From NCBI GenBank assembly GCA_021299175.1, contig JAJTFY010000033.1, positions 1-38,850 on the forward strand: a stretch of 38,850 nt of DNA, given 5' to 3'. The notes under the pieces are model-generated. The model worked only from the letters and a program-made list of their open reading frames with translations. It searched no databases and was not told the DNA's origin. Each line of letters opens with the position of its first letter. Positions within the stretch are counted from its first letter, which is position 1. Positions 12,162 to 33,061 of the stretch are shown here, piece by piece. Made by a program: the position numbers and the translations under genes. The DNA comes from Chitinophagaceae bacterium (GTDB lineage Bacteria > Bacteroidota > Bacteroidia > Chitinophagales > Chitinophagaceae).

Positions 12162-12181
12162 AGCGGAATGAAAGTTCAAGA

Positions 12182-12211
12182 CAAAGATATTATAGTAACT
12201 TTGCGGGGCAA
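12182..12211 (-). promoter_or_regulatory. Promoter of the TonB receptor gene
   Basis: On the minus strand TTG (12209-12211) is followed after exactly 19 bases by TATCTTTG (12182-12189), a full match to the Bacteroidota consensus. The expected start of transcription is about 14 bases before the ATG at 12161. It overlaps the promoter of the opposite ABC-F gene. Confidence 0.7.
12196..12203 (+). promoter_or_regulatory. -7 element of the ABC-F gene promoter
   Basis: TAACTTTG matches TAnnTTTG and lies 19 bases before the ATG at 12223. The -33 region reads TTC rather than TTG at 12175-12177 (18-base spacing). The element sits inside the spacer of the opposing promoter, so the two probably exclude each other. 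Confidence 0.5.
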
Positions 12212-12222
12212 TAAACAAACTT

Positions 12223-14181: not shown

Positions 14182-14218
14182 GTAGGCTATTGCGTTTTAT
14201 TTTTTATTAAATTGCTGC

Positions 14219-14749
14219 ATGACCACATTAAAAAGGCGTGAAGCAATCAAGCAATTATTCTGCATTACCGCAGGAATGGCCATCATTCCATCCTGCATGA
14301 ATGACAGGCGGAAGTCAACCATCCTATTGAGCAAAATAACCATCAGTGGTGCTGAAGAAGACATGCTCGCAGAACTCTGCGAAACCATCCTTCCCAAATC
14401 ATCTACCCCAGGAGCAAAAGACATTTCCTCTCACCTGTTTGTGCTGAAAATGGTGGATGATTGCAGAAAAAAAGAAGACCAGGAAAAATTTTTAAATGGG
14501 ATGAAGGCCTTCCAGGAAAGATGCAAATCCACTGCTGGAAAGGACTTCATGGGCAGTACACCAGATGAGAGAAAAGCAATTCTTGCTTCCATCATCGCAG
14601 ACAAGGATGAGGAGAGTGACATGAAATACTTTTTCAAAACGGTCAAGGGTTTGACAATTCAATCCTATACTGCTTCTGAATTTTTTATGACCAAGGTCCA
14701 AGTCTATGAATTGGTGCCAGGCCGCTACCATGGCTGTGTACCCGCATAA
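14219..14749 (+). CDS. Gluconate 2-dehydrogenase subunit 3 family protein (small subunit of a GMC dehydrogenase)
   Basis: Small partner subunit of periplasmic FAD dehydrogenases, needed for export and maturation of the catalytic subunit. It has 176 residues. The N-terminus LKRREAIKQLF resembles a twin-arginine signal, with a hydrophobic stretch and a possible lipobox ending PSC at Cys26. The body has the family pattern AEEDMLAELCETILPKS and later YTASEFFMTKVQVYELVPGRYHGC. The GMC catalytic gene follows after 22 bases. In this enzyme class the catalytic subunit travels through the Tat system with this subunit. Confidence 0.88.
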   Translation: MTTLKRREAIKQLFCITAGMAIIPSCMNDRRKSTILLSKITISGAEEDMLAELCETILPKSSTPGAKDISSHLFVLKMVDDCRKKEDQEKFLNGMKAFQERCKSTAGKDFMGSTPDERKAILASIIADKDEESDMKYFFKTVKGLTIQSYTASEFFMTKVQVYELVPGRYHGCVPA

Positions 14750-14771
14750 TCACCCCTTAACAAAAAAAACA

Positions 14772-16466
14772 ATGGGCAGCACTAAAAATACTTTCGATGT
14801 TATCGTTATTGGATCAGGCTTGAGTGGCGGCTGGGCTGCTAAAGAATTTACCGAGAAAGGACTAAAAACCCTGGTCCTTGAGCGGGGCCGTGAGGTAAAG
14901 CACCTGCGTGATTATCCAACGACCAACATGATGCCCTGGGAATTTCCACACAGGAATGAAATCCCGCAAGATGTAAAGGATGCCAATCCTGTGATCAGCA
15001 AATGTTATGCTTTCAGAGAAGATGCAGCGCATTTTTTTGTAAAAGACAATGAGCATCCCTACACCCAGGAAAAACCTTTTGATTGGATTAGGGGCTATCA
15101 GACCGGAGGCAAATCCTTGATGTGGGCCCGTCAAACACAGAGATGGAGTCCGTTTGATTTCGAAGGTCCAGCCCGTGATGGCTTTGCCGTAGACTGGCCT
15201 ATCCGTTACAAAGACCTTGCTTCCTGGTACAGTTACGTGGAAAAATTTGCCGGCATTTCAGGCAACCGCGATAATATTGCCTCCCTTCCTGATGGTGAAT
15301 TCTTACCACCGTTGGAACTCAGTTGCGTAGAAAATTATTTCAGTGGTGTTGTGAAGCAGCATTTTGAAAACAGGCATGTCATCTACGGAAGGTGTGCACA
15401 CCTTACCGTTCCACAAAAAATCCATTTGGAACAAGGAAGGGCACAATGTCAAAAACGCAACCTTTGCCAGCGCGGATGTCCGTTTGGTGGATATTTCAGC
15501 TCCAATTCGGTAACCCTTCCATGGGCTGAAAAAACCGGAAACCTGACCATGGTTTCAGATGCCATTGTGCATTCGATCATCTATGATGAGAAAAAAGGAA
15601 AAGCTTCCGGTGTAGCAGTCATTGATGCCAAGACGCACAAGGCTACAGAATATTTTGCCAGGGTTATATTCGTCAATGCGGCTGCACTCAATTCCAACCT
15701 GATCCTGCTTAACTCCACCTCAAACCGTTTTCCCAATGGATTGGGGAATGACAATGGGTTGTTGGGTAAATATGTGGCCTTCCACAATTACAGGGCAAGG
15801 GTCTCAGGTAAATATGACGGATTCCTAGACAAAACAACTGACGGAAGAAGCCATACCAGTGCCTATATTCCGAGGTTTCGCAACGTAGAAAAACAAGAAA
15901 CGGACTTCCTCCGTGGCTATGCGGCAGGATTTTCTGCCAACCGTGGCATCAAAAGGAATACCGATGGTTTTGGAATAGAATTGAAAAACAATTTGGAGAA
16001 AAAAGAACTCGGGCTTTGGAACGTGGGCTCACACATGATGGGAGAAACCATCCCCAAGGAAAGTAATTATGTTGCGCTCGACAAAAACAAAAAAGACGAA
16101 TGGGGTATGCCCTTGTTAAGCATCAGTGTTGACTATGACAACAACGATGATAAAATGGTCAAGGATTATCTGGAACAAATGACCTTGATGTTTGAAAAAG
16201 CAGGCTTCCAGGACATCACCACTACAGATTCAAAACAGGCACCAGGTCTGGACATCCATGAAATGGGTGGTGTACGAATGGGACACGATACCAAGACTTC
16301 CCTGCTCAACAAATGGAACCAACTTCATGGATGCAAAAATGTTTTTGTTACTGACGGATCCTGTATGACTTCCACTTCAACACAAAACCCATCTCTCACC
16401 TATATGGCGTTGACGGCCAGGGCAGCGGATTATGCCATGAGTGAGATGAAGAAGGGGAATTTGTAA
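14772..16466 (+). CDS. GMC-family FAD oxidoreductase (catalytic subunit of sugar/polyol dehydrogenase)
   Basis: Flavin-dependent dehydrogenase, probably oxidising a sugar, glycoside or polyol in the periplasm. From the ATG at 14772 (MGSTKNTFDVIVIGSG) it has 564 residues. The N-terminal dinucleotide-binding motif is VIGSGLSGGWAAKE. A mid-protein cysteine cluster NLCQRGCPFGG follows, and the C-terminal GMC region includes HEMGGVRMGHD and QNPSLTYMAL. It has no signal peptide of its own, which fits co-export with the Tat-tagged subunit 14219-14749. An earlier start at 14706 would overlap that gene and is less likely. A cytochrome c subunit, present in the gluconate/glucoside dehydrogenase complexes I know, is not adjacent. 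Substrate unknown; a glucoside 3-dehydrogenase is one possibility. Confidence 0.92.
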   Translation: MGSTKNTFDVIVIGSGLSGGWAAKEFTEKGLKTLVLERGREVKHLRDYPTTNMMPWEFPHRNEIPQDVKDANPVISKCYAFREDAAHFFVKDNEHPYTQEKPFDWIRGYQTGGKSLMWARQTQRWSPFDFEGPARDGFAVDWPIRYKDLASWYSYVEKFAGISGNRDNIASLPDGEFLPPLELSCVENYFSGVVKQHFENRHVIYGRCAHLTVPQKIHLEQGRAQCQKRNLCQRGCPFGGYFSSNSVTLPWAEKTGNLTMVSDAIVHSIIYDEKKGKASGVAVIDAKTHKATEYFARVIFVNAAALNSNLILLNSTSNRFPNGLGNDNGLLGKYVAFHNYRARVSGKYDGFLDKTTDGRSHTSAYIPRFRNVEKQETDFLRGYAAGFSANRGIKRNTDGFGIELKNNLEKKELGLWNVGSHMMGETIPKESNYVALDKNKKDEWGMPLLSISVDYDNNDDKMVKDYLEQMTLMFEKAGFQDITTTDSKQAPGLDIHEMGGVRMGHDTKTSLLNKWNQLHGCKNVFVTDGSCMTSTSTQNPSLTYMALTARAADYAMSEMKKGNL

Positions 16467-16483
16467 ATGAATAGGAAGTTAAT

Positions 16484-16510
16484 CCGATTGGATTCGCATC
16501 CTAAAGCTAT
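16484..16510 (-). repeat. Weak tRNA-Arg-like fragment
   Basis: CCGATTGGATTCG (16484-16496) is identical over 13 bases to the T-arm/acceptor part of the tRNA-Arg gene and in the same orientation. After a gap of a few bases, TCCTAAAGCTA resembles the anticodon-arm part (ACCTACAGCTT). It lies just past the stop of the TIM-barrel gene. Chance similarity is quite possible. Confidence 0.35.
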
Positions 16511-16522
16511 GGCCTAAAATGT

Positions 16523-17389
16523 TTAGTTGGCTCTCATTACATTCACTTGATCCATTGTTTTTTCTACCAAAAGTTTGTTTCCTTTTAGGTTATAACATTG
16601 AATACCTATAGGAATATTCAACCCAAGGTCAATGGCAACATATTTCACAAGTCCTTTTACATCGAAGCTGCCCTCACCAAGTGGAAGTATATAGTCACCC
16701 CAGATATTGGTTTTTGAAGAAATGATATTGTTTGCACCGTTGATGCTCATCATTTTAAGATATGGTGCAAGGCTTTCAAGTTGTTTTTTTAACGTTGCCC
16801 GCTTATCCATATTGGTTGTTGCCAACCAATGGCATAAGTTAAAAGTCAATCCCAAATTGCTTTTGTTTGCTTTTTTTGCGATCCTTACAGCATGATCAGT
16901 TTTCTCCACATAAAAATTCAAATGCGGATAAATAGCAACTTGCAGACCTGATTCATCTGCCAAATCTGCCAAATTCCTGAGCAAGTGAATGGCCTTTTTA
17001 TCAACTCCTTTATCAGTAGAGTGAAGAGATAAACCATTTTTTTTAATGATATAAAGACAAATGATGGTGCCGGAACCTTTCAACTGTTTAATAGCATCGA
17101 TCAATTTGGGGTCGAGTTCTGGTTCATCCAGATTAAGCTTTGTGTAGAGGGATGATGGTTTAAAACCAAGATTTAAAATGGCCTTGAATTTTTCATTGAA
17201 ATGATCAAGCTCAAAAATTTCTATACCATTAAACCCAGAAGCCTTGATGAGCTTAACCTTTTTTTCAAATGAATTGTATTCAGCATCATTGGAGAGTGCA
17301 CTCTCAAAAACGAAAAAATCATTTGAAATCCTTTGTGAATAGGTAAACCGACAGGCCATCAACACAGTGATCAGCATTAAATACTTCAT
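16523..17389 (-). CDS. Periplasmic TIM-barrel protein, sugar phosphate isomerase/epimerase family
   Basis: Protein of 288 residues with a signal peptide (MKYLMLITVLMACRFTYSQ) and an AP-endonuclease-2/xylose-isomerase-like barrel. Visible pieces are IKASGFNGIEIFELDHF (about 49-65), a His-containing strand VAIYPHLNFYVEKTDHAV, LGLTFNLCHWLA and the final GEGSFDVKGLVKYV. Metal-binding residues are plausibly the conserved Glu and His in these strands. In Bacteroidota such secreted proteins often accompany GMC dehydrogenases and 3-keto-glycoside metabolism, and one lies convergently next door. The DNA looks more A/T-rich than genes to its left. It is flanked by two tRNA-like fragments (16484-16510 and 17454-17495), so it may have been acquired separately. 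Exact reaction unknown. Confidence 0.75.
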   Translation of the reverse strand: MKYLMLITVLMACRFTYSQRISNDFFVFESALSNDAEYNSFEKKVKLIKASGFNGIEIFELDHFNEKFKAILNLGFKPSSLYTKLNLDEPELDPKLIDAIKQLKGSGTIICLYIIKKNGLSLHSTDKGVDKKAIHLLRNLADLADESGLQVAIYPHLNFYVEKTDHAVRIAKKANKSNLGLTFNLCHWLATTNMDKRATLKKQLESLAPYLKMMSINGANNIISSKTNIWGDYILPLGEGSFDVKGLVKYVAIDLGLNIPIGIQCYNLKGNKLLVEKTMDQVNVMRAN

Positions 17390-17453: not shown

Positions 17454-17495
17454 GATCCAGATTGGATTCGAATCAATCACCTAGAGCTTAGAAGG
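17454..17495 (-). repeat. Truncated tRNA-Arg 3' fragment (probable attachment site, distal copy)
   Basis: 38 of 42 bases equal the 3' part of the tRNA-Arg(TCT) gene at 25212-25253, in the same orientation. It runs from the acceptor 3' strand through T-arm and variable region to the anticodon loop. The 5' half of the tRNA is absent. It begins directly after the stop codon of the DUF819 gene. A 3'-end tRNA duplication of this kind is the usual scar of integration into a tRNA gene. Differences are at 17459, 17473, 17478 and 17484; the one at 17473 breaks a T-stem pair, so it is not a functional tRNA. Confidence 0.85.
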
Positions 17496-18734
17496 TCAAA
17501 AAGTAACCCATTGAAACAATGCCCCCGTGATCAAATTTGCATAATTGCCGATTATATTGCTGAGCACACCAAGGATGATTCCAAGTGAAGTCAATCCGAG
17601 GTGAAATGAAGCTGCGACAACAGAAGCTGAAGCTGGCCCTCCAATATTGGCTTGGCTACCTATGGCAATGTAATGCCAGGGGGCTTTCATCAATTTTGCT
17701 CCAACAATCAAAAAAAACAGGTGCATCAAAAGCCACAAGATCCCAATGATTAAAAAAGAATAATTCAATTGAATATTGCCTAACTCTAGTTGCGAACCTA
17801 TTGAAGCGATGACAAAGAATAACATGGTATTTCCCAGTTTTGTCCAAAATTGAATTCCATTTTTAAACAGGTTGGTCAATGATAAAACCAATCCGAATGA
17901 AGTGGAAAATAAAATCAGCCAAAATGACTTTTTTTCAAGAAAGGAAAAAGCATCAGCCTCATCCAATGAAAGTTTCGTCGTGAAATAGGTAGAACAAAAA
18001 TCAGAGGAAAGGATTACCAAGAGATAGACAAGACCCAATACAACACATCGAATGAAATAGGCAAAGTAAGTATTCTTCACAATGATTTCCTTTTCCTCCC
18101 TTTCATTTTCCATGAATGTAAAATCAGTCTGCTTTCTACCAGTGAGCCAACGATTGATGGGATGCTGAATTTTCACGGAATAGAGTAAAAAAAACATCCA
18201 GATATTTTGCAAAATGACATCAGCTGCAAGTGAAGTCAAAAAAAGGGATTCGCTGCTGCCGTATACTTCTTTCATACTGAGTAATCCAGGAGTACCATTG
18301 ATCCAACTACCCGCAATACAGACAAGCCCTCTCCAGGGTGATTGCTCACCAGCATCGGTTAAAATTACCGGATCAAATAAACCGTAAATAAACAAAGCAA
18401 TAGGACCTCCAACTACAATGCCCACCGTTCCAAACAGAAAGACTATCAATCCTTGGCGGGTAACTTTAAGTAGATCTGGAATATGAATGATGGAAGTCAG
18501 TAAAATAAGACTTAGCGGCAAAATTATATTCATGGACAGTTCCCGAATTGTATTTCCCTTATCTACAAAGCCCAGATTGGTTGCAATGGTTGGAAGTAAA
18601 TACAAAAGCAAAATGGGTGGAATCCATTGATATAGCTTTTTAAAAAATCCAAAAGACTTGGCGGATGACCAAGAAACAAATACAGTTATTGCGGCTAACA
18701 ATACTATGGAGGGTAAGGTTACGAGTGCATTCAT
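17496..18734 (-). CDS. DUF819 family membrane protein (putative permease)
   Basis: Polytopic inner-membrane protein of 412 residues with about ten hydrophobic segments in two halves. Family features are AGSWINGTPGLLSMKEVYGSS in the first half and IGSQANIGGPASASVVAASF in the second, which look like paired re-entrant helices of a transporter. DUF819 has no proven substrate in general. It lies 19 bases after the M20 amidohydrolase gene, so the two are probably cotranscribed and the permease may take up the hydrolysis product. The last codon abuts the truncated tRNA fragment. Confidence 0.82.
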   Translation of the reverse strand: MNALVTLPSIVLLAAITVFVSWSSAKSFGFFKKLYQWIPPILLLYLLPTIATNLGFVDKGNTIRELSMNIILPLSLILLTSIIHIPDLLKVTRQGLIVFLFGTVGIVVGGPIALFIYGLFDPVILTDAGEQSPWRGLVCIAGSWINGTPGLLSMKEVYGSSESLFLTSLAADVILQNIWMFFLLYSVKIQHPINRWLTGRKQTDFTFMENEREEKEIIVKNTYFAYFIRCVVLGLVYLLVILSSDFCSTYFTTKLSLDEADAFSFLEKKSFWLILFSTSFGLVLSLTNLFKNGIQFWTKLGNTMLFFVIASIGSQLELGNIQLNYSFLIIGILWLLMHLFFLIVGAKLMKAPWHYIAIGSQANIGGPASASVVAASFHLGLTSLGIILGVLSNIIGNYANLITGALFQWVTF

Positions 18735-18753
18735 TGATTTGATATTGACACCA

Positions 18754-20220
18754 TCAGTCTCTGTAATTTAAAGCAGGGGTTCGGTTTCCGATGAGTGGAA
18801 TGTATTTAAAATCTTCGCCACGTGCTTTCTTCCACTCCATCTTTGCCTTTTCAATAATTGTTTTGTCACTGAGCAGGTCAATACCCATTAAGGTCAGGGT
18901 TTTGGCAGCGACCATCATTCCCTTGGTTCCTATCTCGGTTCCACCTGACGCAACTGCTTGCCAGCTGTGCGAGGGGGTACCCGGAATCCAAGTTGCAGTC
19001 CTGAGACCAACTGTTGGAACGACCCAGCTGACGTCAGCAACATCTGTAGAGCCTCCTGAACGGTTATCGTCACTCAATTCCCTATATGGTTTGATTTTAG
19101 CTGCATCTGTCATTGAAGGTTTCTCACCTATAAACGATTGTTGAATTTTATTTCCAAATTCAACTTCACTTGAAGTGTATGTAACGCCACCCACTTTTGA
19201 AAGATTTTCATGCATGTGCCTGGAAAGAATATCAACGGGCAGCACTTCATAAACACCACCGATGATTTCATATTCCATCTTCGTACCAGTACCAAGAGCA
19301 GCGCCTTCAGCTGCATTTACAAGGCGGTCAAACAACCCCATGAGTACATCTCTGCGGGGATGTCTCATGTAGTAATATACCTCAGCAAAATCCGGAACCA
19401 CATTCGGAGCTTTTCCTCCATTGGTAATGATATAATGCATTCTGGTCTCAGAGGGTATATGCTCTCTCATCAAATTGGCCATAAAGTTCATTGTCTCAAC
19501 GCCATCCAAGGCAGAGCGTCCATTTTGTGGAGACGCAGCTGCATGGGCTGATGTACCTTTGAACCTGAATTTCGCTGTTTTATTGGCCAATGACGTGTAT
19601 GGATTAGCCTCATTTTTACTGTCCGGATGCCAATGCATCACCACATCCACATTATTAAAGAGCCCCTCTCGGGCCATGTAAACTTTTCCTGAACCACCTT
19701 CCTCTGCGGGTGTTCCAAATACTTTGATTGTGCCAGAAATTTTGTTTTTTTCAATATGATGCTTCAATTCAATGGCAGACGCAGCCGATGCCACACCAAA
19801 CAAGTGATGACCGCAACCATGGCCAGCTATCCCACCAAGAGATGATTTTTCTGGAGTGGCATCTTGAGAAAGTCCTGGAAGTGCATCAAACTCTGCCAAT
19901 ATACCAATGACTGGAGAACCAGATCCATATGTGGCAACAAAAGCTGTAGGTATTCCTGCAACACCTGAGTCTATGCTAAAACCCTGATCAAGTAAGACTT
20001 TTTTGAGCAGCGAAGAACTTTTGACTTCCTTGTATCCAACCTCTGCAAAATTCCAAATTTGAAGTGCCTGTTCTTTGTAATAATCGTATTGAACATCGAG
20101 ATTAGCAATAGCCTGATTTTTTTGTGAAATTGTCCCATCTACAATTGTTTTTTTCTGAGAAAAAACAAACAATTGAGCAGATAAGGCGAGCATCAAAAAG
20201 GTAATTTTTCTTCTGTTCAT
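18754..20220 (-). CDS. Periplasmic M20-family amidohydrolase (AbgB-like)
   Basis: Metal-dependent amidase/peptidase of 488 residues with a signal peptide (MNRRKITFLMLALSAQLFVFSQ). Metal-site motifs are GHGCGHH (about residues 133-139), TPAEEGGSGK and VMHWHPDS. The dimerisation domain contains GTSAHAAASPQNGRSALDG, and GGSTDVADVSW is characteristic of the aminobenzoyl-glutamate hydrolase subunit B branch. Relatives cleave p-aminobenzoyl-glutamate or other N-acyl amino acids; the substrate here is not known. The signal peptide is notable, since E. coli AbgB is cytoplasmic. It is separated from susD by a terminator and leads into the DUF819 permease gene. Confidence 0.88.
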   Translation of the reverse strand: MNRRKITFLMLALSAQLFVFSQKKTIVDGTISQKNQAIANLDVQYDYYKEQALQIWNFAEVGYKEVKSSSLLKKVLLDQGFSIDSGVAGIPTAFVATYGSGSPVIGILAEFDALPGLSQDATPEKSSLGGIAGHGCGHHLFGVASAASAIELKHHIEKNKISGTIKVFGTPAEEGGSGKVYMAREGLFNNVDVVMHWHPDSKNEANPYTSLANKTAKFRFKGTSAHAAASPQNGRSALDGVETMNFMANLMREHIPSETRMHYIITNGGKAPNVVPDFAEVYYYMRHPRRDVLMGLFDRLVNAAEGAALGTGTKMEYEIIGGVYEVLPVDILSRHMHENLSKVGGVTYTSSEVEFGNKIQQSFIGEKPSMTDAAKIKPYRELSDDNRSGGSTDVADVSWVVPTVGLRTATWIPGTPSHSWQAVASGGTEIGTKGMMVAAKTLTLMGIDLLSDKTIIEKAKMEWKKARGEDFKYIPLIGNRTPALNYRD

Positions 20221-20243
20221 TGAGCAGATGTTGGGTGATGATC

Positions 20244-20277
20244 AAATAAAAAACAAGGCTCCCCAAAATGGAGAGCC
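20244..20277 (-). terminator. Rho-independent terminator after susCD
   Basis: On the minus strand GGCTCTCC and GGGGAGCC (within 20257-20277) form an eight-pair stem with one G-U pair and a five-base loop ATTTT, followed by TTGTTTTTTATTTG. It separates the susC-susD transcript from the amidohydrolase-permease pair, unless read-through occurs. Confidence 0.8.
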
Positions 20278-20296
20278 CTGGTCATTGTAAAACAAT

Positions 20297-21703
20297 TTAT
20301 TGATTTACCTGTGTTTTTAAGTACAGATCAGGCAAGGGTTTGGGCAAATTAGGATTTGCATTGATTTCATTTTGAGCATAAATCACCCTCTCAGGATGTT
20401 TGGTAGCCGTTGGAGTAGTAAAAGGAATCGGAACATTCACATCGTTTTCAGCCTTACGCAACCTTCTTGCATCATTGAAAGGAAGAATGGTTCCATATAA
20501 TGAAACATAGCGTTCTTCAATGATTTCTCTCATCAATGCCTTGTCTGGGGTAAGTGTACCTCTATTTTCAATTCCACCAGCATTGAAATCAGCAGCAACA
20601 TATGGCTCATACAAAATGGTACCACCTGTGGCAGGTGCAGCTGCTAAACCAAGGTTTGTTTTCAATACAGCCCTTAGTTTGTTCAGCTGAAGCAGTCCCT
20701 CAGCAAATCCTACAGTTCTCAAGCCAGCTTCAGCAAGAATCAAGAGGTTCTCTTCATATGTCACCAAAGGCATGGGAGCATTTTTAGCAGCAACACCCAA
20801 TTCAGTAGATGCTGCAGTTCCTGTAATCTTATAGTATTTTAACCTGGCATCTTCATTGGTTTTGGTATTGTTCCTGTTGCCAACAGCAGCTGCTTTCATG
20901 AGGTTTTCATGCATATAAGAGCCTGCAGTAGCAAGGAAACCACCGCGCTGATCAATCAGTGTATTCAACAGGTTGAAATCACCATCCGCCACCAAGGCTG
21001 GAGGAATAAATTTCCATGACACATTCAAAGCATTGATACCATTTAGTGCAGCTGCATAGGCTTTGGCATAATCCCTTGTTTCCATAAAATACCTGGCTTT
21101 CAAAGTATACGCTACCCTCAACCACGTAGTACTTTTACCGGCAAAGAAAATATCATTTGAAATTACTGCGGCAGCAGATACCGCTGTCAAATCGATAATA
21201 GCCTCATCCAAAAGTTTTTGGATTCCAGCATAAACATCAACTTGCTTGTCAAATTTAGGAACAGGAAATGCATCATTGGCCCTTTCAGAAAAAGGAATGT
21301 CACCATAAAGGGCGGCAGCTGTACCCAATGCATTGGCTTCAATTATCTTGGTAATTCCTGAATAAGACTTGTTGTTGGGAAGTTTTTCCCTGATCACACT
21401 GGCTTGTTTTGCAATGCTTTGATAAATATATATCCAGGTATCGTTGGATTCTTCACCGGAAATACTGTATTCTCCTAAACTTTTGTAGAGAAGTGTAGCA
21501 CCCTTGTATTGCCCCATCCACATACCCGTAATACGCTGAATATGACTTACCTGAACGGTAATATTGGCCAATTCAATGCCTCTCAAAAGGGTTTCAGCAT
21601 TGACGGAAGTTGGGTTATTGGGGTCAACATTCTGACCTTCGTAAACTTTTGAGCAGGAAACCATCATTGTGGTAAAAACTGCTATGATGAATATTTTTTT
21701 CAT
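20297..21703 (-). CDS. SusD/RagB-family nutrient-binding outer-membrane lipoprotein
   Basis: Surface lipoprotein that forms the lid of a SusC transporter and binds its nutrient. It has 468 residues with signal peptide and lipobox MMVSC (lipidated Cys17). The helical TPR-like body of SusD proteins is visible (TLLRGIELANITVQVSHIQR, TTWLRVAYTLKARYFMETRD), and the C-terminal EERYVSLYGTILPFNDARRLRKAEND is typical. The DPNNPTS start of the mature protein places it in the nutrient-binding RagB/SusD subgroup with peptide or general substrates rather than classic starch SusD; this is inferred. It starts 22 bases after susC. Confidence 0.92.
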   Translation of the reverse strand: MKKIFIIAVFTTMMVSCSKVYEGQNVDPNNPTSVNAETLLRGIELANITVQVSHIQRITGMWMGQYKGATLLYKSLGEYSISGEESNDTWIYIYQSIAKQASVIREKLPNNKSYSGITKIIEANALGTAAALYGDIPFSERANDAFPVPKFDKQVDVYAGIQKLLDEAIIDLTAVSAAAVISNDIFFAGKSTTWLRVAYTLKARYFMETRDYAKAYAAALNGINALNVSWKFIPPALVADGDFNLLNTLIDQRGGFLATAGSYMHENLMKAAAVGNRNNTKTNEDARLKYYKITGTAASTELGVAAKNAPMPLVTYEENLLILAEAGLRTVGFAEGLLQLNKLRAVLKTNLGLAAAPATGGTILYEPYVAADFNAGGIENRGTLTPDKALMREIIEERYVSLYGTILPFNDARRLRKAENDVNVPIPFTTPTATKHPERVIYAQNEINANPNLPKPLPDLYLKTQVNQ

Positions 21704-21725
21704 GTTTGTGTTTTGAAGATTGCGA

Positions 21726-24700
21726 TTAGAAATTCAGTTTAACAGTAAACAACCAGGAACGTGTAGATGGGTTGGTGAAATATTCCTGACCAAAACCATT
21801 GTTTACACCAGACTGATTGACTTCAGGATCAAAGCCAACGATATCTGTCCAAAGGAATATATTTCTACCTGTCAATGAAAAACGCATTGAACTGAATTTG
21901 GTTGCTCTTTTGAAAGATGGTGTGCTGAGTGTATATCCCAGTGAAACTTCCCTCAACCTTGTCCAACTTGCATCTCCAATAAAAAATTCACGTATCGCTG
22001 CTGCACCAAGGCCAGCTCCCCTTGAGGTATACCATGCTTCATCCAAAAGCACATTTCCTTTGCCGTAATTTCCAATATTACCCCTTACTGTGGTTCCAGC
22101 AGGGAAAGAAACACCATTTACATTCTTCAATGTTTCAGTCAGTGTAATTTCTTTTCCAACATCTTCATGGGTTCCAAAATTATATAGCACTGATTTGGTT
22201 CCTTGAGAAATGTCTCCACCTTGAGCGGTTTCGAATAGGATATTGAAATCCAGGCTCTTGTAACTGGCAGAAATTCCTGCTCCTCCCCTCCACTCTGGGT
22301 TAGGATCTCCAATTACACCTTGTTCGTTGTCAACATTGGGAAAACCATTGGCATCCAAAATAAAATTCCCCTTGTCATCCCTTAACGCACGAGGGCCCCA
22401 AAGGACACCAAGCTGATATCCCTCAACTGCTCTTGAACTGACTGACTGAGAGGTCAAGTCAATTGTTCCTGTACCACTAAGGCTTATTACTTTGTTCCTG
22501 TTTCGGCTGAAATTGGTCAATACCTGAAGGTTGAAGTCTTTCTTTTTAAACAGATCATATTTCAGGTCGGCTTCAAAACCTTTGTTTTCCATGTTTGCCG
22601 CATTGCTGTACTGGCTGGTAAATCCACTGGAAGGTGGAAGGCCTACATTCAACAGGATATCTGTAGTTTTATTTTGATAGTAGGACATCGACAGACTCAA
22701 TTTGTTGTTCAAGAAACGCAAATCTGTTCCCAACTCCCACTCAGTCTTGACTTCAGGCTTGAGGTTGTCGTTTCCTTTCACATTGTCCAATCTGTATCCA
22801 CCGCCAAAATTGGTAGTAGCCAGACCATCATCGTAAGCATTGTAAACACCGGTTTCATAAGTGGTTACAAAATTATAGGCAGTTGGCTGAACACCAACCT
22901 TACCCCATGCTGCCCTTATTTTACCAAAGCTCAGGAAACGCTCATTTTTAAATGCAGGCAACTTGCTGAATTGCCATGCTACGTCTGCTGAAGGGTAGAA
23001 GAAGTTTTTGCTGATGGTTGAGGCGGCCTCTAAAGCCCCTGACACGTTCACAAACAATTGGTCTTTGTACTCAAGGTTTGCAGTAGTGTAACCACGGTTG
23101 GAACTTCTGTGTAGGAGACTGTTGATGACATTTGTATTGGCATCTGAAGAAAGAATGAAGTTTTGAAGATTGATATTATCCAAAAAATTCTTGGCTTCGG
23201 CATAGAGGATATCTCTCCTGCGGTCATTGGCATTTGCTCCAACAATCAAAGTACCTTTTAAATCTTCAGTCAGGTATGATGTTGCCCTTGCAATCAAATC
23301 GATATTCTTCTCAACTTCACCAATTTTTTCATTCCTGTAAGTGCCCACAGACCTTTCTCCAGCTGATCCGACAGGGAAAAAATATACCCTTCCGTCATTG
23401 CTGGCATCGATGCCACTTCTCAGGATAAGGTCTAACCAAGGAAATGGGTTTGACGAAACCTCAGAGGATATAAGAAAACGGTTTACATTCGAATTGGCAG
23501 TTTGGTTATAAATGGTCCAAAGGGGGTTATTGAAAGTAGGCTGAACGTTGTCACCCAGGTACCGACGGTAAGACCTGTGCCTGTTCCTGAATTCAACACC
23601 ATTGTTATCAAAATAACTTCCTATGTAATCTGTATTGTCAAAATCTGGAGCAGTCCTGAGCAATCCAAGGTACAAGCCAGCAGTATTTGAATTGTTTTGT
23701 ATCCTGTCAGACTTTACATTGATGAATGCAGCTTTATTGCTGAATTTGATGTATTTGCCAAAATTATGATCAGAATTGAAGCGAACAGAATTACGTACAT
23801 AATTGCTGTTGGCTCTCATTATACCAGTTTGGTTTAAATTTTCAAGCCCAAGGAAGAACTTAGACTTGTCATTCCCACCGCTAAGGGAAAGTGAATTTTG
23901 CCAAAAATGACCTTTCCCAAATACCCCATCAAAATTTTTATCAGCATATGTGTTCTTGCTGTTTTTGCCTCCATGAACATTTGCAGCTGTTCCTGGTGCT
24001 ACAGCGTAGTATTTGTTACCCGTTTGATAACCCTGGAAATAAGCTGTTCCAGATACAACATCAGCACCCCCTAGACGTTCAGCAATTTTATCACCCCATG
24101 AGTTGGTGGCGGTAGCACTGTATCGTCCTGCAGCCCCTTGACCAAAAGTATTTTGCATAGGATGTTTCCTATTGATCTCATCCACAGAATATGAGGAGCT
24201 GAATGAAATGTTTAATGCCCCTGACTTCCCTTTTTTTGTGGTGATTACAAGCACACCATTTGCAGCCCTAGAACCCCACAAAGCAGAGGCTGATGCTCCT
24301 TTTAATACCTGAATGCTTTCAATGTCATTTGCATTGATATCATTGAGCCTGGATTGCTGAACAACACCGGTACCGGTTGAGCTGGATCCATTTCCATGAA
24401 TCTCTGAATTACTAATGGGAACACCATCCAAAATAATCAATGGCTCAGAAGAACCTGTGATGGTATTGGCACCCCTGATTCTGATGTTTGCACCTGCGCC
24501 AGGATCACCGGTTGACCTGGTGATTGAAACCCCCGATGCTTTACCTGCCATTCCCTGTAAAAGACCGGTTTCACCTGAACGAACAACTTCTGGAGCACCA
24601 ATTTTTGAACTGGCTGTACCAAATTTGTCTGCTTTTTCTTGAAAACCAAGAACAGTTACCACTACATTTTCAAGTTCTGCTGTAGCAGGCTTCAAAATGA

Positions 24701-24977
24701 TATTAAAGGTGGAAAGATTGCCAACAGCAATTTCTTTTGAAACATAATTGGTGAAACTTGCTACAATAATGTCTGATTTTCCTAGAACAGATAATTTAAA
24801 TGATCCGTTTGCGCCAGTACTTGTAGCAATTTTAGAACCTTTGACTGTAACGGTTGCTCCGGCAAGCGGCGAACCATCTTCGCTGGAAACTGTACCGGAA
24901 ATCTCTTTCTGCTGGGCAAAGGAGAGGAGACCACATCCCAGTACCAACAAAAAGGAGAACATAACTCTTTTAATCAT
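21726..24977 (-). CDS. SusC/RagA-family TonB-linked outer-membrane transporter
   Basis: Large TonB-dependent transporter, 1083 residues. It has a signal peptide (MIKRVMFSFLLVLGCGLLSFAQ), then a carboxypeptidase-regulatory-like domain (ISGTVSSEDGSPLAGATVTVKG, about 25-100). The plug has SusC hallmarks: IRIRGANTITGSSEPLIILDG and the LKGASASALWGSRAANGVLVI segment. A long beta barrel ends in aromatic Phe (WLFTVKLNF). It pairs with SusD downstream and ends with the terminator at 20244-20277. No anti-sigma or sigma factor gene is adjacent. No confident promoter was found upstream. Confidence 0.95.
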   Translation of the reverse strand: MIKRVMFSFLLVLGCGLLSFAQQKEISGTVSSEDGSPLAGATVTVKGSKIATSTGANGSFKLSVLGKSDIIVASFTNYVSKEIAVGNLSTFNIILKPATAELENVVVTVLGFQEKADKFGTASSKIGAPEVVRSGETGLLQGMAGKASGVSITRSTGDPGAGANIRIRGANTITGSSEPLIILDGVPISNSEIHGNGSSSTGTGVVQQSRLNDINANDIESIQVLKGASASALWGSRAANGVLVITTKKGKSGALNISFSSSYSVDEINRKHPMQNTFGQGAAGRYSATATNSWGDKIAERLGGADVVSGTAYFQGYQTGNKYYAVAPGTAANVHGGKNSKNTYADKNFDGVFGKGHFWQNSLSLSGGNDKSKFFLGLENLNQTGIMRANSNYVRNSVRFNSDHNFGKYIKFSNKAAFINVKSDRIQNNSNTAGLYLGLLRTAPDFDNTDYIGSYFDNNGVEFRNRHRSYRRYLGDNVQPTFNNPLWTIYNQTANSNVNRFLISSEVSSNPFPWLDLILRSGIDASNDGRVYFFPVGSAGERSVGTYRNEKIGEVEKNIDLIARATSYLTEDLKGTLIVGANANDRRRDILYAEAKNFLDNINLQNFILSSDANTNVINSLLHRSSNRGYTTANLEYKDQLFVNVSGALEAASTISKNFFYPSADVAWQFSKLPAFKNERFLSFGKIRAAWGKVGVQPTAYNFVTTYETGVYNAYDDGLATTNFGGGYRLDNVKGNDNLKPEVKTEWELGTDLRFLNNKLSLSMSYYQNKTTDILLNVGLPPSSGFTSQYSNAANMENKGFEADLKYDLFKKKDFNLQVLTNFSRNRNKVISLSGTGTIDLTSQSVSSRAVEGYQLGVLWGPRALRDDKGNFILDANGFPNVDNEQGVIGDPNPEWRGGAGISASYKSLDFNILFETAQGGDISQGTKSVLYNFGTHEDVGKEITLTETLKNVNGVSFPAGTTVRGNIGNYGKGNVLLDEAWYTSRGAGLGAAAIREFFIGDASWTRLREVSLGYTLSTPSFKRATKFSSMRFSLTGRNIFLWTDIVGFDPEVNQSGVNNGFGQEYFTNPSTRSWLFTVKLNF

Positions 24978-25210
24978 AGTTTAACATTTTAGTGGGGCAA
25001 TATTACAGATTAATGCTAGGAAATATGTATTTAAATGGAGGTTTCTACATGGGTGTGGAAAAACCAATTTAGATTAAAGCTGATCATAGATTAGACAAAA
25101 CACTAAATATTTTGATAGACACTGCAAAAGATTGGAATTGATGGAAATAATTATATTGGAGGGGCTCCAAAAAGAAGACGGGGAATTAAGATTTACAGAA
25201 CTAAAAAGTG
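24978..25210. other. Intergenic region between susC and tRNA-Arg
   Basis: About 233 A/T-rich bases. It must hold the susC promoter, but only imperfect -7 elements are seen (TAATATTG and TAAATTGG on the minus strand). It also holds a hairpin at 25156-25170. I see no gene here; an open frame across the tRNA on the plus strand is not coding. If the island interpretation is right, the inserted segment's inner border lies near 25211. Confidence 0.5.
25156..25170 (-). terminator. Possible terminator hairpin downstream of tRNA-Arg
   Basis: TTGGAG-GGG-CTCCAA on the plus strand is a perfect six-base inverted repeat. On the minus strand it is followed by TATAATTATTT, a weak T-rich tract, about 40 bases past the tRNA 3' end. 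A second T-run (TTTTT) follows the tRNA directly. Confidence 0.35.
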
Positions 25211-25284
25211 TGATCCCGATTGGATTCGAACCAATGACCTACAGCTTAGAAGGCTGCCGCTCTATCCAACTGAGCTACGGGACC
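25211..25284 (-). tRNA. tRNA-Arg (anticodon TCT)
   Basis: 74 bases fold as a cloverleaf. The acceptor stem GGTCCCG pairs with CGGGATC (one G-U), the D-arm is GCTC/GAGC, the anticodon stem GCAGC/GCTGT has loop CTTCTAA giving anticodon TCT (AGA codons), the variable region is AGGTC, and the T-arm ATTGG-TTCGAAT-CCAAT is standard. The discriminator base is A and CCA is not encoded. The gene is complete, and a 3' fragment of it recurs at 17454-17495. It has its own promoter at 25304-25333. Confidence 0.97.
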
Positions 25285-25303
25285 TGGATATCTTTAAGGA
25301 GTG

Positions 25304-25333
25304 CAAAGATAATTTTTTTTAGCTTGCAGACAA
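25304..25333 (-). promoter_or_regulatory. Promoter of tRNA-Arg
   Basis: TTG (25331-25333 on the minus strand) followed after 19 bases by TATCTTTG (25304-25311), the same -7 sequence and spacing as the TonB receptor promoter. Transcription would start about 13 bases before the mature tRNA 5' end, leaving a short leader for RNase P. Confidence 0.7.
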
Positions 25334-25348
25334 GAAGTGAAGTGAACA

Positions 25349-25982
25349 ATGGATGTAAAAATTTCCCCAGGCTGGAAAAAAGCAAATCGAGAGCAAACAA
25401 GTCATTTACCCTTCTGGATCCCTGATATTTAATGCCTTCAATACCACCGACCTCAAGGATGTCAAAGTTGTGATCATTGGCCAGGATCCTTACCATGGAC
25501 CCAATCAGGCGCATGGCCTCAGCTTTTCAGTACAAAAAGGAATCAAGCCCCCGCCTTCTCTGATCAATATTTACAAGGAAATTGATGCTGATCTGGGTGT
25601 CAAAATGCCCCGAAACTACGGAGACCTGACACAATGGGCCAAACAAGGAGTTCTATTACTCAATGCAAGCTTAACTGTAAGAGCAAACCATCCCAACAGC
25701 CATGCAGGCATTGGATGGCAGATTTTTACGGATGCAGTCATCAACATCCTCAATAATCAAAAGAAAAACCTGGTTTTCATGCTTTGGGGTAACTTTGCAA
25801 AGGAGAAGGGAGCGCATATTGATGAATCAAAGCACTTGGTACTTAGGGCCATGCACCCCTCACCTTTTGCAGCAGACAAAGGATTCTTTGGCTGTAATCA
25901 TTTTTCAAAGGCCAACGAGTACCTGATGCAAAACGGCATTGACCCAATTGATTGGATGATCAAAGAAAAACAAGATGATTAA
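25349..25982 (+). pseudogene. ung: Uracil-DNA glycosylase with an internal deletion and frame change near the N-terminus
   Basis: Family 1 uracil-DNA glycosylase, which removes uracil from DNA. The expected N-terminus is present at ATG 25349 (MDVKISPGWKK), but that frame soon stops. The rest, from about 25380 (KKQIESKQVIYPSGSLIFNA onward), is in another frame. Compared with the family, some 20-25 residues between the first Trp and the IYPxG motif are missing. The catalytic part is intact: IIGQDPYHGPNQAHGLSFSV with the catalytic Asp, LLLNASLTVR, and HPSPFAADKGFFGCNHF with the catalytic His. Without the frame change, translation could start only at a rare codon such as GTG 25470, which would lose part of the fold. 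Either a true pseudogene or an assembly error. Its end overlaps plsC by eight bases. Confidence 0.8.
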
Positions 25983-26709
25983 AAATATCCTGGGAAGGTT
26001 GTTTACGGTTTGGGGCGGAATTGTTTTCATTGGATCAATGCTGGTTTTTATGCCCGCGGTATGGATCAGTGGGATGTTTGCTGAACCCCAAAGCACTGGG
26101 ATATTCATCAGGATTTGCAGGAGCTGGATGGCGATATTTTTTAGACTGGCCGGTGTCCGGCTAACCATCAGGGGCAGAGAAAACTTCAAAAAAGGGGAAA
26201 ATTATATTGTTGTATGCAATCACAATTCCCTCATGGATGTGCCTTTGACAAGCCCCGGTATTCCTGGGGCCAACAAGACCATCGCCAAGATTGAAATGGC
26301 AAAAATTCCTGTTTTTGGCATCATTTATAAAAGGGGATCAGTTTTGCTTGACCGAAAAAGCGATGCGAGCAGAAGGGACAGTTATCTGACCATGAAAGAT
26401 GTACTTGAGAAAGGCATGCACATGTGTATATACCCTGAGGGCACCAGAAACAAGACTGAAAATCCACTCAAATCCTTTCACGACGGTGCCTTCAGGCTAT
26501 CCTTCGACACCGGAAAAAAAATCATCCCGTGCCTGATCAAAGGAACAAGAGAGATGCTTCCGCACAACAAAAGTTTCTTTTTTTGGCCAGGCAAGGCCAG
26601 CATGCAGTTTCTCCCTGCCATTGACCCCAAAGATTTTGCATCAGCAGCGGAAATGAAAGAACATGTATTTCAGCTGATGTGGGATGGAATTGCTGTCATG
26701 AAAAACTAA
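25975..26709 (+). CDS. plsC: 1-acyl-sn-glycerol-3-phosphate acyltransferase family protein
   Basis: Membrane-bound acyltransferase making phosphatidic acid from lysophosphatidic acid. It has 244 residues, with an N-terminal membrane segment (about 10-32) and a second hydrophobic patch. All four family motifs are visible: NHNSLMD (NHxxxxD), YKRGSVLLDR, YPEGTRNK and IIPCLIKG. The start overlaps the ung end. It converges on lptD with only 26 bases between stops. Close relatives acting on ornithine lipids exist, so the acceptor is not certain. Confidence 0.9.
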   Translation: MIKNILGRLFTVWGGIVFIGSMLVFMPAVWISGMFAEPQSTGIFIRICRSWMAIFFRLAGVRLTIRGRENFKKGENYIVVCNHNSLMDVPLTSPGIPGANKTIAKIEMAKIPVFGIIYKRGSVLLDRKSDASRRDSYLTMKDVLEKGMHMCIYPEGTRNKTENPLKSFHDGAFRLSFDTGKKIIPCLIKGTREMLPHNKSFFFWPGKASMQFLPAIDPKDFASAAEMKEHVFQLMWDGIAVMKN

Positions 26710-26735
26710 ATATTCAAGCATGACACTCCAAATTG

Positions 26736-29459
26736 TTACTGTGTATAAAAATACCGGGTACGGTTGATTTTGAGGTCTCTGAGCAAACCTGATTTGGGGC
26801 TGATGGAAATATTAAAAAACCGGTAAAGCCCAACGGGGGTCACATTGATCGACATCTGCCAGCAATGCAGATCCCTGGAGATGAATGTGGTAAGAGACTG
26901 AAGTTTCATGGTTTTGGTATCATAATACCCATTGGCGCCAATTTTCCACTTTGGAGAAAGACTGAAATCACCATTAAAGTTGAAACTGGAGGTAAGTTCT
27001 GTCTTGTAGGTATAATTGGGCTGCAAGAGCCTGGCAAAACTCAAAGAGTAAGAAAAACTCAACGACCATGGGATACTGAAATCGGTAAACTCTGCAGGGT
27101 TTCTGCGGATGTAATCCATTTGCTGCATCATCTGATCATTGGTAAGGTTATTATCATCTTCCTCGTTCAATTTCTCCTTTTCTGCTTTGTCTTTTTCATC
27201 TTTCTTTTTGCTTTGGAAACTGGTGGACATGTTGATGCTGCCACTGGTGATAGAGCCTAAATTGAATTTGCTTCCTCCTTGCCAGGCATATTCATTGATC
27301 TTGTAGCCATTGGTTGGATTGGTCTTATACGGATCCAATGAAGCATTGGCTGTAATATTGATCTTTTCAAAGAGATTGCTTCGCGCATAAATGCTGAAGG
27401 TGGAAAGCTTGAAACTATCGGCCAGAAAGTTATACCCTCCTGAAATGCCAAATCCATCTAGCAATTTCACTTTTTTCAATTCTGCTTCGCCAGTATCGGT
27501 TTTGGAACGAACCTTCATTTCAATGTTGTTATCAATTCCAAATCCTATTCCCCCACTCTCTTCAGAGCCAAATGGTCCGTAAATACTTCCATCAAAAACA
27601 GACATCAAGACTTGATTTCCCTCCTTGTCTACTCGCTCACGGTAATAATATGGTTTCATTAGATCGGGCTTGTAATTGACCCCAAACTGGGGACGCATCA
27701 CATGCCTGATGGCCTGAACTTTTGCTTCTTTTTTCTTTGACTGGTAGGTACCAAAAACTGCGGTACTGAAAGAAAGGCCCATGGACATTTCCCTTGCTGC
27801 ATTGAAGCCTTTCTCCATCGTAGAGTCAAGCTTTTCGGTTACAGGATTCCATTTTCGGTAGAATTTCTGGGCATACCATCTTTCCCTGAAAGAGATGTTG
27901 GGTGCCACCTGAAAAGGCCCCATTGGTGGAAGGGATAGTGTAATGGGAATATCATGGCTTGCACCCCACTGGAAGGTATCAATCAATTGCTTGAACCTGA
28001 ATGCGGTATCATAAAAGGAGATTTGGCCCTTATAGCTTCCACTATATCCCACACCTAGTTTTTCGTACCATTTGGATTCTCCGACTGATTCCTTTGGTTG
28101 CAGGGGATAAATGGTATTCATCACCAGAGCGATATCGGGTAGGTTGAGGTTAACCAGTTTGGTTGCCGTATTCTGGTTGTGGTTGAGGTTTACAGAAAAG
28201 TTGAAAGGCGTTCCCTGCCATGTTTTCTGGTAAGAAATGGACGAACTCAACTGGTTCGTGAAGTTCATGGGTTGCATGTAATTGCCTCCCCCCTGAACGG
28301 TGCCTGTAAAACCTGGATTGGCCATTGCACCGCCATTAGGAACAAGTTTTAGGTATTTGCTGCTTCCGGCATTGACATTTGCACTGAAAGAGACTCCCGG
28401 GCGTGCCTTGCTGTCCATGCTGTGCGACCAGGTAACAAAGAAACTCTTGTTTTTGCTATAGTCAGGGTCTCCCTTGAAGGCAAATTTTGTATTCTGCAAG
28501 CTGATGTTGAAGGTTCCACTGTAGCGGTACCGCATCCTGTAGGAAGGAGAAAAATTGGCCCGCCAGGATCCATAAGAGTAAAGGTCAAACCAGACCTTTG
28601 CATCCAGGTAATCGTTCACCGCCTTGTAATATCCCAACCCTTCCAACCCCACACCAAAATCCTCGGTAACCGTGAATTGTGGGGGGATAATCCCAGATTG
28701 CCTGCCTTTTTTCATGGGGAAAATGCCGAAGGGCAGGTAGATGGGCACGGGTACGTCTTCAAATTCAGGATGCACGGGGCCGGTGACCACAAGCTTTTTG
28801 TTGATGAACTTGGCCTTGCTGAACCGAAAGGCGAAATGGGGAGTATCGAGGTTACAAGTTGTGAATCTACCCCTGGCGGCAAAAAAAGTTTCAGGATCAA
28901 TTTTTTTGACCTTTTCAGCGAAATTATAGAGTTCGTCCTGCTGAAAGAAAGAACTATAGGTAAGGCCTTTTTGGCTTTTGAAATTGAATTTAAGGCTATC
29001 ACTCACCGTAATGGTTTCGCCCTGCTTCATTTTGGCCATTCCTGTAACAATCCCAGCGGTATCCCTGCCCATTTTTGCGGTAACATACTGGGATTGCTGG
29101 TCAAAAACAATTGTTGGGGCATTGACCTGGAGATCATCATATTTGATTTCTGTCTTTCCGTAGAGCAGCATTTTCCTGGCATCTACCTCCAAAACCATTG
29201 AATCCTCTGCCTTGTGATCAACTGGCGAAGTAATGGAATCCGCTGAAAGCTTGAGATTGAGGGTGTCTACTTTTGACTGTTTAGCGGTTGTGTCTTTTTT
29301 TGTCGCCGAGGGTATTGTATCTGCAACATCAACATCCAATTTGAGTGAGAATACACTGGTTGTCCTGTGCGTTGAGAATGTTAAAATAGGAAGTAACCCT
29401 GAGCATAAAATCAAGATAAAAAGATATTTTAAGCTAAATTTGCTTTGGGGCTGTAGCAT
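26736..29459 (-). CDS. lptD: LptD-like LPS-assembly outer-membrane protein
   Basis: Outer-membrane barrel that inserts LPS into the outer leaflet. From the ATG at 29457-29459 (MLQPQSKFSLKYLFILILC) it has 907 residues, with an N-terminal signal/anchor and a Ser/Thr/Lys-rich region to about residue 85. An OstA/LptA-like beta-jellyroll follows (MVLEVDARKMLLYGKTEIKY onward), then the LptD barrel with GPVHPEFEDVPVPIYLPFGIFP and GIIPPQFTVTEDFGVGLEGLGYY. A charged Lys/Glu/Asp-rich loop lies near residue 765. An upstream start at 29474 would overlap the -7 element. It is divergent from the amidase-MCE-OstA genes, a grouping that makes sense for envelope assembly. Confidence 0.9.
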   Translation of the reverse strand: MLQPQSKFSLKYLFILILCSGLLPILTFSTHRTTSVFSLKLDVDVADTIPSATKKDTTAKQSKVDTLNLKLSADSITSPVDHKAEDSMVLEVDARKMLLYGKTEIKYDDLQVNAPTIVFDQQSQYVTAKMGRDTAGIVTGMAKMKQGETITVSDSLKFNFKSQKGLTYSSFFQQDELYNFAEKVKKIDPETFFAARGRFTTCNLDTPHFAFRFSKAKFINKKLVVTGPVHPEFEDVPVPIYLPFGIFPMKKGRQSGIIPPQFTVTEDFGVGLEGLGYYKAVNDYLDAKVWFDLYSYGSWRANFSPSYRMRYRYSGTFNISLQNTKFAFKGDPDYSKNKSFFVTWSHSMDSKARPGVSFSANVNAGSSKYLKLVPNGGAMANPGFTGTVQGGGNYMQPMNFTNQLSSSISYQKTWQGTPFNFSVNLNHNQNTATKLVNLNLPDIALVMNTIYPLQPKESVGESKWYEKLGVGYSGSYKGQISFYDTAFRFKQLIDTFQWGASHDIPITLSLPPMGPFQVAPNISFRERWYAQKFYRKWNPVTEKLDSTMEKGFNAAREMSMGLSFSTAVFGTYQSKKKEAKVQAIRHVMRPQFGVNYKPDLMKPYYYRERVDKEGNQVLMSVFDGSIYGPFGSEESGGIGFGIDNNIEMKVRSKTDTGEAELKKVKLLDGFGISGGYNFLADSFKLSTFSIYARSNLFEKINITANASLDPYKTNPTNGYKINEYAWQGGSKFNLGSITSGSINMSTSFQSKKKDEKDKAEKEKLNEEDDNNLTNDQMMQQMDYIRRNPAEFTDFSIPWSLSFSYSLSFARLLQPNYTYKTELTSSFNFNGDFSLSPKWKIGANGYYDTKTMKLQSLTTFISRDLHCWQMSINVTPVGLYRFFNISISPKSGLLRDLKINRTRYFYTQ

Positions 29460-29471
29460 AGTTGTGGCAAG

Positions 29472-29479
29472 CAAAATTA
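29472..29479 (-). promoter_or_regulatory. Candidate -7 element (TAATTTTG) for lptD
   Basis: TAATTTTG on the minus strand matches TAnnTTTG and ends 12 bases before the chosen lptD ATG. The -33 region is not convincing. Confidence 0.4.
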
Positions 29480-29545
29480 GTCAATTTAAGTTGTAAGATT
29501 TTGTGAAGATTCCCTGCTGCTCCCCAAACCAAAAGAAATTCAAAT

Positions 29546-30433: not shown

Positions 30434-30473
30434 GGGATGAGGGGAAAGGGATGAGGGATGAGAGGGTTAAGGG
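30434..30473 (+). other. G-run repeat, possible G-quadruplex
   Basis: Six runs of three or four G separated by loops of 3 to 6 bases (GGGATGA-type units) lie between the amidase stop and the MCE gene. The spacing fits the G3+N1-7 rule for an intramolecular quadruplex, in both DNA and the transcript. It may also be a decayed short tandem repeat. Confidence 0.6.
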
Positions 30474-30496
30474 AGTTAATAAACGAATAATTTATC

Positions 30497-33057: not shown

Positions 33058-33061
33058 CCTT

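Follow-up and report, generated by a model that had tools for sequence, protein, structure and literature searches.

A probable two-layer genomic island, old and decayed, at a tRNA-Arg(TCT) gene of a Chitinophagaceae bacterium

In this work, we analyzed a contig of 38,850 bases (C61; hereafter, the window) from the draft genome of a Chitinophagaceae bacterium (G000; 2.27 Mb in 164 contigs). According to ARAGORN, the sole tRNA gene of the window is a tRNA-Arg(TCT). We consider it likely that the region from approximately position 16478 to position 25210 is an old, decayed genomic island of two layers, formed by serial integration at this tRNA gene, probably by a tyrosine recombinase. From left to right, the locus presents a GMC oxidoreductase gene, a first fragment of the tRNA (scar 1), a TIM-barrel gene, a second fragment (scar 2), four genes encoding DUF819, M20, SusD and SusC proteins (hereafter, the cargo), the intact tRNA-Arg and a uracil-DNA glycosylase (UDG) gene. 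The TIM-barrel gene would be the older layer and the cargo the younger one, and they probably represent two accretion events rather than one.

tRNA-Arg(TCT), its displaced 3′ fragments and the cargo

The features of the predicted island, with the evidence for each, are as follows.

16478 to 16496, minus strand: scar 1, decayed tRNA-Arg 3′ end, 16/19 identical with a 13-nucleotide (nt) exact core, possibly extending with gaps to about 16531 (alignment; position of the intact tRNA in genome G022)
16523 to 17389, minus strand: xylose-isomerase-like TIM-barrel gene, probable older layer (PF01261, E = 2.2e-13)
17454 to 17495, minus strand: scar 2, 42-nt 3′ fragment of tRNA-Arg, 38/42 identical (alignment; orthologous scars in genomes G033 and G036)
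17496 to 18734, minus strand: DUF819 membrane protein gene, its 3′ end abutting scar 2 (PF05684, E = 1.9e-50)
18754 to 20220, minus strand: M20-family amidohydrolase gene (PF01546/PF07687; TIGR01891 above its cut-off)
20297 to 21703, minus strand: SusD-like lipoprotein gene (PF12771, E = 7.7e-23)
21726 to 24977, minus strand: SusC/RagA TonB-dependent transporter gene (TIGR04056, E = 3.5e-170)
25210 to 25284, minus strand: intact tRNA-Arg(TCT), the anchor of the island (ARAGORN)

Scar 2 is a real piece of the tRNA and more than a chance match. Local alignment returned it as a single ungapped match with a score of 64 to plus-strand positions 3-44 of the tRNA, and none of 5000 letter shuffles of the surrounding 85-nt stretch reached this score; the 200 Markov-resampled scans over the 20 mapped loci did not exceed 26. 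It extends, in the same orientation as the tRNA, from near the tRNA 3′ end to the 5′ edge of the anticodon loop, and the DUF819 stop codon (17496-17498) lies directly against it. The locus thus shows an intact tRNA at one end and, at the other, a displaced 3′ fragment of the same orientation that reaches a recognized crossover subsite. The anticodon-loop subsite is among those named for tRNA islands in the part of the Islander report considered here (PMC4383910). An initial annotation of this DNA had described the intact tRNA, the 42-base repeat of its 3′ part, the start of this repeat at the DUF819 stop codon and its orientation and order on the 3′ side of the tRNA; all of this was confirmed, with the start of the tRNA corrected to 25210. 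The length of 7.7 kb given there holds approximately for the DNA between the repeats, while the span from 17454 to 25284 is 7.83 kb. Scattered copies of the 42-base fragment, which the annotation had proposed as counter-evidence, were not seen: at E<=0.001, nothing in the own genome matched beyond tRNA-Arg and scar 2.

Scar 1 (GTTAATCCGATTGGATTCG) is located directly behind the GMC stop codon (16466); its 16/19 identity was counted by eye. A gapped alignment continues to the anticodon arm and reaches a score of 35, the best of 5000 shuffles being 30; this extension is only suggestive because the 13-nt core supplies most of the score. Scar 1 is convincing because of its location, where the closest relative, G022, carries its intact tRNA. 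A BLAST comparison showed that window positions 10354-16496 and 25210-33479 are contiguous in G022, with a 19-nt overlap inside the tRNA. The two tRNA fragments, at 16478 and 17454, would make a candidate tandem array, in which the outer one (scar 1) is the more decayed.

By its distribution, the cargo is foreign to the genus. In a genus sample of 41 genomes, the own one included, a search at E<=0.001 located DUF819 in a single genome and, beyond it, only a 24% match in G017. Among the matches at E<=1e-40, to which the SusD search was confined, SusD was in a single genome, with one further match of 38% identity in G030. Additionally, the first 141 residues of SusC are present at a contig end of G027, with 92% identity. 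In a family sample of 394 genomes, DUF819 occurs in 20 (E<=1e-40) and SusD in 18 (E<=1e-60), and the nearest DUF819 relative, with 63% identity, belongs to another genus. SusC, SusD and M20 are contiguous in two other genera (G406, 69/76/70% identity; G289, 64/66/62%), where DUF819 was not on the stretches examined around them. In G325, an M20 gene, partial at the contig start, and DUF819 have the order and strand of the window and lie 2.9 kb apart (76/63%). No tRNA was present on the examined stretches of these three genomes.

M20 relatives are common in the genus (34/41 genomes at E<=1e-60), and the own genome has a second, partial one. In the M20 tree, the window copy groups with those of G406, G289 and G325 with support of 100/100, apart from seven copies of the genus. 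This tree agrees with a foreign origin without firmly rejecting the alternative, and it is not decisive alone. The four cargo genes, all on one strand, are likely to have entered together. Joint entry falls short of proof because SusC-SusD-M20 occurs without DUF819 in G406 and G289, and because M20 and DUF819 are 2.9 kb apart in G325. The initial annotation had proposed entry of the segment as one unit, which is likely for the cargo; it had missed scar 1, behind which the TIM-barrel gene looks like an older layer. The cargo consists of a SusCD importer, an amidohydrolase and a DUF819 membrane protein; judging by the family names, it most likely imports and cleaves an N-acylated amino-acid-type compound. 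None of the five island genes matched a PHROG (phage family) at E<=0.001, and their Pfam and NCBIfam matches included no relaxase, type IV secretion or mobilization gene.

The locus in relatives and the direction of change

The predicted island is flanked by the following genes.

12223 to 14181, plus strand: gene that we take to encode an ABC-F ATPase, left core anchor of the variable interval (open reading frame)
14219 to 14749, plus strand: gluconate 2-dehydrogenase subunit 3-like gene (PF13618)
14706 to 16466, plus strand: GMC oxidoreductase gene (PF05199/PF00732)
25470 to 25982, plus strand: UDG gene, right core anchor (PF03167, E = 4.8e-15)

UDG is present in 29 of the 41 genus genomes, and in 25 of these 29 loci a tRNA-Arg(TCT) is located near it; the remaining four are partial matches at contig ends. 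We mapped 20 of the 25 loci, our own included, the other five having little DNA on the 3′ side of the tRNA or another arrangement (G037). An ABC-F relative is located on the 3′ side of the tRNA in 14 of the 20 mapped loci, also counting our own. The interval between ABC-F and tRNA-Arg-UDG differs widely in content. G032 has no gene between ABC-F and the tRNA. In G022, GMC, tRNA and UDG follow one another unbroken, and GMC and its partner are the only genes of the interval, which makes an empty junction for both layers. In G021, the TIM-barrel gene lies directly on the tRNA, followed by UDG, an empty junction for the younger layer. GMC and its partner are themselves variable at this place within the genus, since they adjoin tRNA-Arg in G022 and are missing at the locus in G021. 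G033 and G036 carry GMC, a serine-acetyltransferase-like gene, CysK, the TIM-barrel gene, a scar and a gene of 182 residues, and G027 carries SusC (its contig starts inside this gene), a 185-residue gene and a relative of the 182-residue gene. Another SusCD-like pair, its SusD judged by eye, is present in G004, G009, G011 and G028, and an integrase relic in G010. The TIM-barrel gene is found at a tRNA-Arg in G021, G023, G033 and G036, in G023 beside the outer of two tRNA copies. Other genes occupy the locus in G001, G016, G017, G020, G030, G035 and G039.

The relationships of these genomes were estimated from 1.35 kb of the right flank, using 11 of the 20 rows (G023 and eight others left out). 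This tree contains clade A, ((G000,G022),G027), with support of 100/99, and clade B, (G036,(G033,G021)), with support of 100/100. Clade B has support of 91/100 in a 20-row tree, in which the row of G023, built on an incorrect choice between its two tRNA copies, is meaningless. The inner order of clade B is weak (80/87), and the test does not reject a clade of G033 and G036 (p-AU 0.15). For the four close relatives that it includes, an eight-row tree of up to 8 kb agrees.

Scar 2 occupies the same place behind the TIM-barrel gene in G000, G033 and G036, and its orthologous copies show different decay among the genomes. Two derived letters are common to the three copies, C at plus-strand position 2 and A at position 8; the tRNA itself has T and C at these two positions of the tRNA reading. 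In G033, scar 2 is succeeded by TCAAAAAGTAACC, which corresponds to the final 13 nt of the window DUF819 gene and for which the probability of a chance match at the given place is about 3e-8, with one occurrence per locus on the scanned strand. The TIM-barrel gene of G000 is 82-84% identical to those of clade B, within the 80-86% of flank pieces longer than 1 kb, as vertical descent predicts. Based on the shared scar letters, the G033 stump and this identity, the TIM-barrel gene, scar 2 and at least the end of DUF819 most simply date back to the ancestor shared by clades A and B. Their carriers do not form one clade: in the flank tree, a clade of G000, G033 and G036 was rejected with p-AU 2e-33, and with G027 added, with 8e-66. 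Hence, G022 and G021 lost layers at the tRNA pieces or received an empty version by exchange, and their junctions fall exactly on tRNA pieces.

The naive reading of these empty sites is thus reversed by the scar 2 copies found across the A/B split and by the cargo stump of G033: the empty loci of G021 and G022 are secondary losses or replacements, not the pre-insertion state. The search for an empty site suggested by the initial annotation did find the junctions GMC-tRNA-UDG and TIM-tRNA-UDG, with this changed meaning. A recent single insertion in the window lineage was also considered and was rejected, as scar 2 and the TIM-barrel gene span clades A and B and their carriers are not a clade. 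More generally, a near relative with an empty site can owe it to loss and need not show the pre-insertion state.

In the interpretation that we favor, each layer would have entered by site-specific integration at tRNA-Arg, probably through a tyrosine recombinase with the anticodon loop as its crossover site. Each integration would have restored the tRNA and displaced its previous 3′ end outward, leaving a scar, and the recombinase gene would later have been lost, or the enzyme would have acted from elsewhere. Layers may later have been removed when a scar recombined with the tRNA, at scar 2 in G021 and at scar 1 in G022, with a less clean removal in G033 and G036.

Recombinase evidence and competing explanations

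We infer integrase action from the geometry of the scars and from the relic in G010, so that support for a tyrosine recombinase at the anticodon-loop subsite is circumstantial. The relic (locus L073) is the N-terminal part of a tyrosine recombinase (PF17293, E = 2.6e-8) less than 1 kb from tRNA-Arg. About 70 nt away from it is an exact 22-nt copy of the tRNA T arm, itself 214-236 nt from the tRNA. By eye, the relic runs into DNA resembling the tail of a SusD gene. In the own genome, PF00589 has three matches, none of them on the window contig; two are of Xer-like length and have counterparts in relatives. The third, near the end of contig C96 (L115), is a C-terminal integrase piece with a 74-residue open frame beside a tRNA-Asp, and in G027 (contig C118, L116) an integrase with a 398-residue open frame is found near a tRNA-Arg(ACG); these are other tRNA integration sites in the genus. 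An enzyme acting in trans is conceivable because the C96 piece could be a broken or cut-off integrase gene.

Several observations weigh against the two-layer integrative island. In line with the initial annotation, no integrase was found at the locus or inside the island: the window contig has no PF00589 or PF17293 match. PF17293 has 19 matches in 13 of the 41 genus genomes, of which just one is at the tRNA-Arg(TCT) locus, and the 13 PF00589 matches in six genomes searched include none on the locus contig; neighboring integrases may be missed because this contig is short in several genomes. The T-arm copy of G010 has an inverted orientation, unexpected under simple integration. Scar 1 is weak alone, its score of 26 being equal to the maximum of 200 Markov-resampled scans (20 loci, 5 per locus and orientation). 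In G033 and G036, moreover, scar 1 is absent and CysK is the left neighbor of the TIM-barrel gene, which casts doubt on the succession of events at scar 1. An approximately unbiased (AU) test did not reject a single clade of the window M20 and the seven genus copies used (p 0.08). Regarding composition, which the initial annotation had proposed to compare, the GC content of the cargo (0.412) is lower than in any of 76 overlapping, equally long segments of the window flanks (0.427-0.445), but the ranges inside and outside overlap in 1-kb steps. Finally, every genome compared at the locus comes in contigs, so mis-joins may have gone unnoticed.

Some of these points also fit a different account, which we regard as unlikely, namely RecA-type homologous exchange between the ABC-F and tRNA-UDG anchors, with short matches on the far side. 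The tRNA fragments would then have arisen incidentally through duplication and unequal crossing-over, and no integrase would be involved. This account accommodates the wide variation in gene content between the anchors in the 20 loci and the missing PF00589 matches on the locus contig in the six genomes. It is also favored by extra tRNA-Arg copies, complete in G023 and near-complete in G035. These copies and a related second one in G001 look like duplication rather than integration and speak against our interpretation. The two complete tRNA-Arg(TCT) genes of G023 (L075) are about 1.9 kb apart, identical by eye and similar in their 5′ flanks; between them, also by eye, lie an apparent ABC-F tail and a SusD tail. 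Likewise, G021 (L067) shows an apparent CysK tail beside the TIM-barrel gene, about 930-960 nt before the tRNA (by eye, compared with G036). This tail looks like the footprint of a deletion from GMC through CysK, away from any scar, and argues against a purely integrase-driven history. Nevertheless, homologous exchange does not predict that scar 2 is a 3′ piece ending sharply at the anticodon loop, and G010 carries an integrase relic near a T-arm copy of tRNA-Arg.

It is quite improbable that the scars are real and that the cargo and the TIM-barrel gene are long-standing vertical residents, lost elsewhere, with the fragments stemming from an unrelated old tRNA duplication. Scar 2 and the TIM-barrel gene are indeed older than the split of the two clades, and the DUF819 stump of G033 and the partial SusC of G027 show that the cargo was once wider. 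However, the other genomes of the genus almost entirely lack DUF819 and SusD, whose closest relatives are in other genera; scar 2 coincides precisely with the edge of the cargo in the window and with the stump in G033, and G021 and G022 lost their DNA precisely at tRNA pieces. A chance match or an assembly artefact, for which the 164 contigs of the draft could speak, is hardly credible given the shuffling result for scar 2 and its orthologs with different decay in G033 and G036.

Comparison with known islands, and further observations

Like the islands described with Islander, the window locus is bounded on one side by an intact tRNA and on the other by a displaced 3′ fragment of the same orientation; in the part of that report considered, 2083 of 3919 islands use the anticodon-centered subsite, 125 tandem cases are given, and the filters include a test for an integrase gene, of which a tandem array needs one per member (PMC4383910). 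Since no integrase was found at the window locus, Islander would presumably reject it, as would other island finders that require an integrase. The ssrA islands of Dehalococcoides also follow one another behind a single RNA gene and are bounded by a short direct repeat derived from the 3′ end of that gene; the passages considered describe a serine recombinase acting with the tmRNA gene, repeats of 20 bp and numerous islands in tandem (PMC3146451). The window differs by its tRNA-Arg, 42-nt repeat, two layers and lack of a detected recombinase at the locus. Sixteen of the Dehalococcoides islands are reported there to hold an integration module (PMC3146451), so the module can be absent. In the genome-streamlined ‘Ca. 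Methylopumilus’, variable islands of the additive flexible genomic island fGI-2 are likewise preceded by tRNA repeats, namely the last 20 nt; as far as the consulted sections describe it, this system differs in belonging to Methylophilaceae, in using tRNA-Lys and in comprising islands of 330 bp to 42 kb, and no mechanism is stated there (PMC10872708). These two systems, the row of ssrA islands and the islands at tRNA-Lys repeats, are the closest precedents, and the window locus belongs to that kind. A literature search on this combination of tRNA and family returned no paper, which is no proof of absence. The locus is a clear and fairly ordinary example of bacterial gene gain and loss at tRNA genes, and preserves, in order and probably in two layers, how genes were gained and lost at a single tRNA of a Chitinophagaceae lineage.

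Tycheposons are bordered by a tRNA, carry cargo such as nutrient uptake genes and include satellites without a recombinase. Their defining tyrosine recombinase next to the tRNA was not found at the window locus. They are also named in the consulted sections on ‘Ca. Methylopumilus’ (PMC10872708).

The 182-residue gene is found in G036 (L065:10667-11215), G033 (L066), G035 (L078) and G027 (L068), and these four best-matching copies, which span two distant clades, are all beside tRNA-Arg(TCT). With the G036 copy as the query, the identities are 76% in G033, 68% in G035, and 88% and 77% for two pieces in G027. In G036, the gene is flanked by 84-nt direct repeats (82%), and in G035 it is located between a 29-nt tRNA fragment and the near-complete tRNA-Arg copy. 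It has no Pfam match at E<=0.1, and its family comprises 22 matches in 15 of the 41 genus genomes. At the more distant loci, none of the 17 scanned flanks has a tRNA gene, and no tRNA-Arg piece or repeat was found at threshold. A doubtful, rather speculative possibility is that tRNA-Arg(TCT) serves small integrase-free cassettes, such as the TIM-barrel gene, the repeat-flanked 182-residue gene and SusCD operons, which a recombinase supplied in trans would stack and remove. In that case, a layered record would be readable from the decay of the scars, and the 182-residue gene would be the best candidate.

At the right anchor, the UDG gene of the window is without 59 nt near its start in comparison with G022. 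The start would be expected at about 25350, and the frame is broken there (window 25350-25500), indicating either a pseudogene or an assembly error.

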